Source: a virus
IMG/VR virus record: IMGVR_UViG_3300036861_000176
Coordinates: 1-39,901 of that record
Strand: one strand, 5' to 3'
Length of the DNA: 39,901 nucleotides
How positions within the stretch are numbered: position 1 is the first letter of the stretch; the number at the start of each line of letters is the position of its first letter. The notes beneath the pieces are model-generated. The model was not told where the DNA came from. It did no database searches and saw only the letters and a program-made list of their open reading frames with translations. Shown piece by piece: positions 27,606 to 29,136 of this stretch. The position numbers and the translations under genes are program-made.

Positions 27606-28478
27606 TCACGAGGCAACATTAACATCAATAAAAAACTGTGCCAACTGTGCTGGCCAGTTAAAACTATAGTCAACGCGGCTTGCAATTCCAAGACCAGATG
27701 CCGGAGCATTGGTGGTAACAGAAATCGGCGGGTCTTCAATGAATTTCGCTTTTCCGTACGTTCCTCGCAAAATTCCAAGCTCACCGGTTCTCTTAATACC
27801 GGCAAAAACATGGTTCGCGCTATGAGAATTAGACAGATAATGGTCTACTCCCATATAACGGAATGCCTTTTGAACTGGAATACCATTCTTCAAACTAATA
27901 TCAGCTTCAGTGAAGCCATTAGCTTGAACAAACTCTTCCAAAAGCTCAAAATCCTTTGCGCGCCAGACAATGAAGATACCCCTCTCAACTGCAAATTCTA
28001 CTCCATCATTGGAATATATCTTACGCTTAATAGCGCGAACAAGATTATCAATGTTGGCAGAAGAAACAGTAATGGTAGTGGTATCATCGGCAGCCCCACC
28101 CGTTAAATCGGTAGCACCAAAGTCTTTCCAACTAGCATGTTCGGCAAGCAGGAGAGATTCAATTTTCTCCACTGTTTTCTTGCCGTGAAAGTCAGCGAGT
28201 TCCATTTGGTCAGCATACGTTTGCTGATATCTGTCAGCTTCGTCAATAAAGATTGCCATCTGCTGAATCTTACTGATAGTCATTGTATCAGCAGTCAAGA
28301 CAAAATCTTTATAGGCGTATGCAGTTCCACGAGTGCCAGCAGCCAGAGTTGGCTCGGTACTCATGTAAGAGTTAACAACCGTTCTATTGTCGGAATATTT
28401 TACGTTCAAAATATCCGTCCAAGTGATTGGCTTATTGATTCTGGCTCTCATCTTCATGACGTAATCGTGACGATTATA
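27606..28478 (-). CDS. Major capsid protein, exon 2
   Basis: The frame is open upstream of the ATG at 28457 as far as 28478 (YNRHDYV before MKMRARINKP). Spliced to exon 1 (29119-29136) it gives a 296-residue protein, MANTVV joined to YNRHDYVMKM. The sequence (STEPTLAAGTRGTAYAYKDF, IDEADRYQQ, ADFHGKKTVEKIESLLLAEH) fits HK97-fold capsid proteins of phages with this gene order: portal, scaffold, capsid, adaptor. Without splicing, an N-truncated product from 28457 would lack 13 residues. Confidence 0.85.
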   Translation of the reverse strand, partial: YNRHDYVMKMRARINKPITWTDILNVKYSDNRTVVNSYMSTEPTLAAGTRGTAYAYKDFVLTADTMTISKIQQMAIFIDEADRYQQTYADQMELADFHGKKTVEKIESLLLAEHASWKDFGATDLTGGAADDTTTITVSSANIDNLVRAIKRKIYSNDGVEFAVERGIFIVWRAKDFELLEEFVQANGFTEADISLKNGIPVQKAFRYMGVDHYLSNSHSANHVFAGIKRTGELGILRGTYGKAKFIEDPPISVTTNAPASGLGIASRVDYSFNWPAQLAQFFIDVNVAS

Positions 28479-28485
28479 CTTTTTG

Positions 28486-28857
28486 TTACTTTACATTAAG
28501 ATAATCAATTAAAGACTGTAATAATTTAGGGCTATCTTTTACTTTCCCAAGGATAGTATTACATTTAACACATATCCATCCTCTAAATTTTCCAGTTTTA
28601 TGGTCGTGGTCAAAACAAATTTTTTCTCTATCATTCTTACATATCTCACATTTTTCAGGTCTGGGTCTCCCTGCTATTTCTTCCAATTCTTTAATACGTT
28701 TTAACCACCATTCTTGATTATATTTATAGCGTCTTATTCTGTTTTCCGGATTAGCATACCATGCTTTACTGCGCCGTTTAGCGTCAGCTAAATACTTAGC
28801 GCGTATTTCTGGTTTGCTACGATATTTCTGTTGCGCTCTTGTTTGTGATTCATTCAT
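28486..28857 (-). CDS. Intron-encoded endonuclease VII-type HNH homing endonuclease
   Basis: A 123-residue protein: a basic N-terminal part (residues 1-60), then CEIC (70-73), CFDHDHKTGKFRGWICVKCN (81-100) with the DHDH catalytic motif and paired Cys, and a C-terminal helix (SPKLLQSLIDYLNVK). This is the recombination endonuclease VII-type fold. It stops 8 nt before the intron's 3' end. It would cut intronless capsid alleles and spread the intron. Confidence 0.85.
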   Translation of the reverse strand: MNESQTRAQQKYRSKPEIRAKYLADAKRRSKAWYANPENRIRRYKYNQEWWLKRIKELEEIAGRPRPEKCEICKNDREKICFDHDHKTGKFRGWICVKCNTILGKVKDSPKLLQSLIDYLNVK

Positions 28858-28882
28858 ATAATTTTCTAATAATTATATGTCT

Positions 28883-28911
28883 ATACTATCACAAACTACG
28901 CTATAAATCAA
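28883..28911 (-). promoter_or_regulatory. Possible promoter for the intron-encoded endonuclease
   Basis: The minus strand reads TTGATT (28911-28906), 17 nt, then TAGTAT (28888-28883), with TG one base before the -10 (extended -10). It lies between the intron core and the HNH start at 28857. Separate expression of the endonuclease from an intron-internal promoter is known in T-even introns. Both hexamers are imperfect. Confidence 0.4.
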
Positions 28912-29118
28912 GTCAATGTACGAATAAACATTTCTGTTTATTTCCGCAATTTCTTACTTCAGTTATTTTTGCGGTTCGGACTATCGCATCCCCTTTTACC
29001 ATAAATAGAGGTCTCATCGTTTAGTCTCTTACGCTAGCATTACCCTTGCGCATTGTTACCCTCTTTTAGGGCTTCCAACTCAATTAGATGAGATTTAAAG
29101 TCGTCTATATTAAAGTCA

Positions 29119-29136
29119 AACGACTGTATTAGCCAT
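29119..29136 (-). CDS. Major capsid protein, exon 1 (six codons)
   Basis: ATG GCT AAT ACA GTC GTT (MANTVV) follows a GAAAGTGAATGAT leader, 57 nt after the scaffold stop. The frame hits TGA immediately unless the intron is removed. MANTVV is a usual start of phage capsid proteins, and splicing restores a full-length gene. Confidence 0.8.

Follow-up and report, generated by a model that had tools for sequence, protein, structure and literature searches.

Introns in phage capsid genes have been described before: mycobacteriophage LittleE carries a probable group I intron of ~820 bp in its capsid gene, whose splicing was shown by RT-PCR and protein sequencing in a paper that also cites a capsid intron of Tuc2009 (PMC3706429). 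Homing endonucleases of the DHHRN (Endo VII-motif) type, with the signature CX2C, DHDH, R and CX2CN, are known as well, some of them encoded by group I introns that interrupt DNA polymerase genes of phages (PMC6083498), and in Bastillevirinae phages a single gene can harbour several group I introns whose endonucleases differ (PMC11878797, whose text mentions neither capsid nor Endo VII). The element reported here, in a viral window of 39,901 nt (the whole stretch of DNA that was analysed), is therefore familiar in kind, since both capsid introns and intron-encoded Endo VII nucleases are already published. As in LittleE, an intron lies in the major capsid gene, exon 1 ends in U, the intron ends in G, and an endonuclease gene sits inside; but LittleE has a LAGLIDADG-like ORF on the opposite strand, whereas ours is of the Endo VII type and on the coding strand. 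LittleE has one site only, whereas the relatives of the window use four or five, and exon 1 of the window has 18 nt. The endonuclease shares its C-terminal motif with the F-CphI/DHHRN family (PMC6083498); F-CphI is free-standing beside the psbA intron, whereas the present gene lies inside a capsid-gene intron. Finally, splicing in LittleE was shown by experiment, whereas the splicing of our intron and the activity of its enzyme are predicted from sequence. The original prediction had called an intron so close to the start codon of a capsid gene unusual. This needs qualification: capsid-gene introns as such are on record, and a first exon of 18 nt is indeed short, yet it recurs in this lineage.

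We think that the element is a mobile group I intron inserted between codons 6 and 7 of the capsid gene of an uncultivated tailed phage, an account in terms of ribozyme splicing and homing to which we give a probability of roughly 0.92. The features of the locus, all on the minus strand, are as follows.

29119 to 29136, minus strand: exon 1 of the major capsid gene (MANTVV, 18 nt), the joined product matching intronless homologues.
28479 to 29118, minus strand: group I intron of exactly 640 nt, last base G (28479), placed by intronless homologues, the U.G 5' site and the G 3' site.
27606 to 28478, minus strand: exon 2 of the major capsid gene, from YNRHDYV to the stop, identified through phrog_267 in homologues and the HK97 fold of the intronless homologue L002.
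29119 to 29124, minus strand: exon arm of P1, GUCGUU, with its guide arm GACGAC at 29105-29100.
28974 to 29096, minus strand: ribozyme core, P3 to P7', found with a covariance model built without the window.
29012 to 29093, minus strand: P3, UCUCAUC (29093-29087) with GAUGAGA (29018-29012); in siblings, both bases differ in 6 of the 7 pairs.
29031 to 29079, minus strand: P4 (29079-29076/29055-29052), P5 (29071-29068/29062-29059) and P6 (29051-29048/29034-29031), from helix reading and sibling covariation.
28979 to 29026, minus strand: P7, GACUA (29026-29022) with UAGUC (28983-28979), crossing P3 as a pseudoknot.
28990 to 29011, minus strand: P8, CCUCU (29011-29007) with AGGGG (28994-28990), from helix reading and sibling covariation.
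28923 to 28974, minus strand: P9 (28974-28969/28949-28944) and P9.1 (28942-28936/28929-28923), arms picked by eye.
28486 to 28857, minus strand: intron ORF of 123 aa, predicted Endo VII (DHHRN-type) homing endonuclease with its catalytic residues kept.

The DNA of exon 1 (29136-29119, minus strand) reads ATGGCTAATACAGTCGTT and encodes MANTVV. On recomputation, removal of the 640 nt joins it in frame to YNRHDYV, as had been predicted, and gives a protein of 296 aa with the N-terminus MANTVVYNRHDYV, which matches dozens of intronless homologues. The minus-strand ORF list contains instead a frame of 283 aa that opens at ATG 28457, so that a plain gene caller would lose exon 1 and report an N-truncated capsid protein, again as foreseen. 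Because bases 1-3 of the intron are TGA, translation of an unspliced capsid message would halt at the first intron codon. Production of the capsid protein almost certainly requires the removal of this group I intron.

Dozens of relatives of the capsid protein are present in IMG/VR, and the intronless ones supply the exact empty site. The 5' end of the gene is intron-free in 45 contigs, which form 33 clusters at 95% identity, vs about 8 distinct intron-bearing ones, window included. The existence of the 283-aa frame, and of free-standing Endo VII genes in other phages, could be taken to mean that nothing is spliced, the capsid protein starting at ATG 28457 behind what is merely an endonuclease gene. 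We consider this very improbable. Relatives whose 5' end is intact and uninterrupted start with MANTVxxNKHDYV or a variant of it, upstream of the position of 28457; a start at that position, combined with a lack of covariance-model matches, was what the original prediction had named as fatal to itself; N8, D11, Y12 and V13, which adjoin the junction, are invariant in 16 aligned proteins; joining at the exact ends of the ribozyme restores the upstream residues; and the ribozyme core covaries.

This covariation was assessed within the capsid gene family, in which 13 introns could be given exact boundaries from their sequences; excising each of them restores conserved capsid protein sequence (13/13). 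All 13 share the order P1-P3-P4-P5-P6-P7-P3'-P8-P7', most add P9 and P9.1, and the window intron has the canonical group I order P3-P4-P5-P6-P7-P3'-P8-P7' with its P3/P7 pseudoknot. The helices first proposed (P1 with U.G, P3, P5, P6, P7, P8, P9 and a P10 option) are all present, together with P4, P9.1 and a P10 of 4 bp. Helix arms in the 13 introns were chosen by eye, a few being missed by automatic location, so that the near-perfect pairing over these introns is partly by construction. For the window, two tests are free of this weakness. In a MAFFT alignment of the 12 siblings, from which the window was excluded, the structure pairs 92.7% of cells, vs 70.7% when shuffled and 36-45% when slid by 1-3 columns, and 24 of 33 pairs change on both sides; the last pair of P7, for instance, is A-U in 6 siblings and G-C in 6. 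A covariance model built from the same 12 siblings, the window left out (model R1), has as its sole match in the 39.9-kb window the core at 29096-28974 (minus strand; 97.3 bits, E 1.2e-21). The sibling model, the covariation and the intronless homologues therefore agree that an intron splits the capsid gene after six codons, as first claimed.

A search with the Rfam group I model, the check initially recommended, gives no match in the window, either at the gathering cut-off or at E<=10, although the intron is real, and Rfam at gathering does not match six sibling loci either. Only when whole records were searched with RF00028 was a match found to the L089 intron, which occupies the same site with an offset of 1 nt (50.8 bits, cut-off 50, model positions 1-253); the site-D intron of L032 reaches 29.8 bits (E 2.3e-8). 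The L089 sibling is the only one among the introns found that passes the RF00028 cut-off, and the window copy goes unrecognised. The absence of a stem between P7 and P3', which are separated by 3 nt in all 13 introns, indicates that the intron does not belong to subgroup IA. The minimum-free-energy fold of its 5' part is not significant (z -1.5), with a method that cannot represent a pseudoknot.

Group II introns, inteins and translational bypasses like that of T4 gene 60 can each restore a split gene and travel with endonucleases, so an insert of another type deserves mention; we give it next to no chance. An intein is rejected by the stop codon TGA at the first intron position. A group II intron is disfavoured, Rfam giving no group II match in the window. 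The T4 gene 60 bypass is far shorter than 640 nt. Moreover, the sibling model finds a group I core with its pseudoknot, and one sibling passes RF00028.

The splice sites also bear the marks of a group I intron. In the window, the exon sequence GUCGUU pairs with the guide GACGAC, with U.G at the splice site, and the last intron base is G. Over the 13 introns, 9 different exon arms fit their own guides in 78/78 pairs, a figure that falls to 59% when arms are swapped. P10 has a mean length of 4.6 bp, vs 2.4 bp for exons exchanged between sites; it reaches up to 8 bp in L020 and L089. At the site used in the window, the introns of L020 (4264-4998), L024 (4180-4998) and L089 (1884-2555) end 1 nt later than those of the window (29118) and of L032, and this slide moves the U.G pair and the last G together, leaving the protein unchanged. 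In 6 of the 13 introns, the first codon to include intron bases is a stop (binomial P 1.6e-4, independence assumed), and such stops have been read in a review as favouring intron folding (PMC3984707). Given a first exon of 18 nt, the initiating ribosome would cover P1 itself.

That the interrupted gene codes for the major capsid protein, as originally claimed, rests on its homologues, because the window protein itself has no match to curated head-protein families. Among the 16 family members, 11 match phrog_267, major head protein (best 2.3e-9). A predicted model of the intronless homologue L002, which is 77-78% identical (mean pLDDT 77), resembles 5vf3 (Z 17.7, rmsd 3.9 over 254 residues) and 1ohg (Z 16.2, rmsd 4.3 over 234 residues). 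By homology and by the predicted fold of this relative, the split gene product is an HK97-fold major capsid protein. The same window contains a terminase gene, whose nearest relatives, in Flavobacterium phages at ~46%, are too distant to name a host, and the capsid protein was not found in any isolate phage or GTDB genome contig. A leader motif, GGTCGTCATTTGATT, stands at 29180-29166 (minus strand), 29 nt before the capsid start codon, in a single copy in the window. In most relatives, intron-bearing or not, close versions of it (GTCGNCGTTTGATT) precede the start by 20-31 nt; it may act as a late promoter or as a translation signal.

The intron ORF (28857-28486) matches Recombination endonuclease VII (PF02945, 2.1e-20), and C70, C73, D83, H84, H86, R92, C96, C99 and N100, that is, the complete DHHRN motif (CXXC, D-H-x-H, R, CXXCN), are invariant in 11 proteins. 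This bears out the proposed endonuclease VII-type HNH gene, with one small correction: its stop codon leaves 7 nt, rather than 8, to the 3' splice site. The three components of the locus, namely a group I intron, an Endo VII-type ORF of the HNH superfamily and a major capsid gene, are thus each independently supported. A free-standing endonuclease VII/HNH-like ORF lies just downstream of the capsid gene (27535-26939, minus strand; phrog_1035, 8.8e-9), and model R1 finds no intron core there.

Is the intron still mobile through its own enzyme? We believe that it probably is. One could argue that it splices but has ceased to move, or that the Endo VII ORF serves some other function (for example as a resolvase), the whole being inherited vertically. 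Some observations lean that way. A sigma-70-like promoter with 10-12 of 12 matches precedes the endonuclease in 9 of 12 endonuclease-bearing introns, and the best one upstream of the window endonuclease has 9/12 matches, which is not significant; a scan of the coding strand before this gene found nothing. In L030, a sibling at another site, the endonuclease is gone save for a remnant. We nevertheless regard immobility as unlikely, because all catalytic residues of the window enzyme are intact, its Endo VII motif lies at the C-terminus, where the homing clade of PMC6083498 also has it, the intron is patchily present among close relatives, and the closest relative of the enzyme in this data set, 74% identical, is the ORF of another intron at the same site, that of L089.

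The introns of the relatives occupy four, perhaps five, sites in this one capsid gene.

Site A, codon 6/7: the window and L032; one base later in L020, L024 and L089.
Site B, after NKHD, codon 11: L034, L031 and L005/L004.
Site C, residues 188/189: L030 and L087; L183 by reading.
Site D, residues 192/193: L088, L089, L091 and L032.
Candidate site E, codon 2/3: L088, 3' splice end only (GTAACAAGAAAG), not counted as proven.

Some genes carry two introns, A and D in L089 and L032, B and C in L031/L087. Sites A and B lie 15 nt apart and have Endo VII ORFs in common; the distance is 12 nt between C and D, whose shared ORFs belong to another HNH type. The ORF of the L020 site-A intron is LAGLIDADG-like (by reading), and the ribozyme of this intron and that of L089 at site D are sisters (98/98) that differ in site and in endonuclease, so that the history of the ribozyme is separate from that of the endonuclease. 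In L030 (1093-1444), a site-C intron of 352 nt has its HNH endonuclease reduced to a C-terminal remnant (KAFHYKNLQSLWAKENVSKGAKTL); to judge from its sequence, this is an intron caught in the act of losing its endonuclease. A further HNH type, with a CHRKTDTWG-like ending, is encoded directly before the capsid gene in L003 (2150-2600), L088 (1-215) and L183 (554-1183); in L088 it is followed by the intron-like 3' end at codon 2/3, and an intron core sought by eye upstream of the capsid gene in L003 was not seen.

Over 25 contigs of the family, the introns found by model R1 are confined to the capsid gene. Run over 153 loci with related endonucleases, the model matches three: L183, a more distant capsid gene of the same family; L135 (2192-2306, 86.6 bits), in a different major head protein (phrog_267, 5.3e-11); and L234 (4347-4452, 82.5 bits), at the 3' end of an ORF whose resemblance to capsid genes was judged by eye. 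Since these loci were drawn by their endonuclease, the three matches do not prove a preference for capsid genes. The L135 intron has its endonuclease ORF before P3, with the stop inside the P3 strand. Less ordinary than the element itself are the four, perhaps five, sites in one gene, some of them neighbours, the slide of 1 nt, the differing endonucleases at one site, and the same ribozyme type in the capsid genes of other phages. It is tempting, if speculative, to see here mobile ribozymes of one clade spreading through the major capsid genes of phages, with four to five sites in one of them, reinserting nearby, swapping three types of endonuclease, and probably acting as a drive or a weapon between co-infecting phages.

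From the boundaries, core, covariation, empty sites and intact catalytic residues of the intron, which can be read directly in the sequences, we infer splicing in the cell, the use of guanosine, cleavage and homing. The ribozyme would fold in the transcript around the P3/P7 pseudoknot, its guide sequence pairing with the end of exon 1 to form P1 with U.G at the splice site. Exogenous guanosine would then drive splicing, MANTVV being joined to YNRHDYV in the 296-residue HK97-fold protein, and a ribosome entering the intron would halt at its first codon, TGA, and so would not run into the ribozyme core. Most probably, the Endo VII-type enzyme cleaves capsid genes that lack the intron, those of relatives infecting the same cell, and repair of the cut gene would copy the intron into it.

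The locus indicates that the gene for one of the most abundant proteins of a phage can bear large self-splicing insertions, with only 18 nt of coding sequence ahead of the first. Natural variants of a single gene occur in the lineage: empty, interrupted at four to five sites, with three endonuclease types, with a remnant, and with a slide of 1 nt. Such variants are useful for understanding how a mobile intron comes to occupy a new site or to carry another endonuclease, and how splicing can keep up with translation just behind a start codon.
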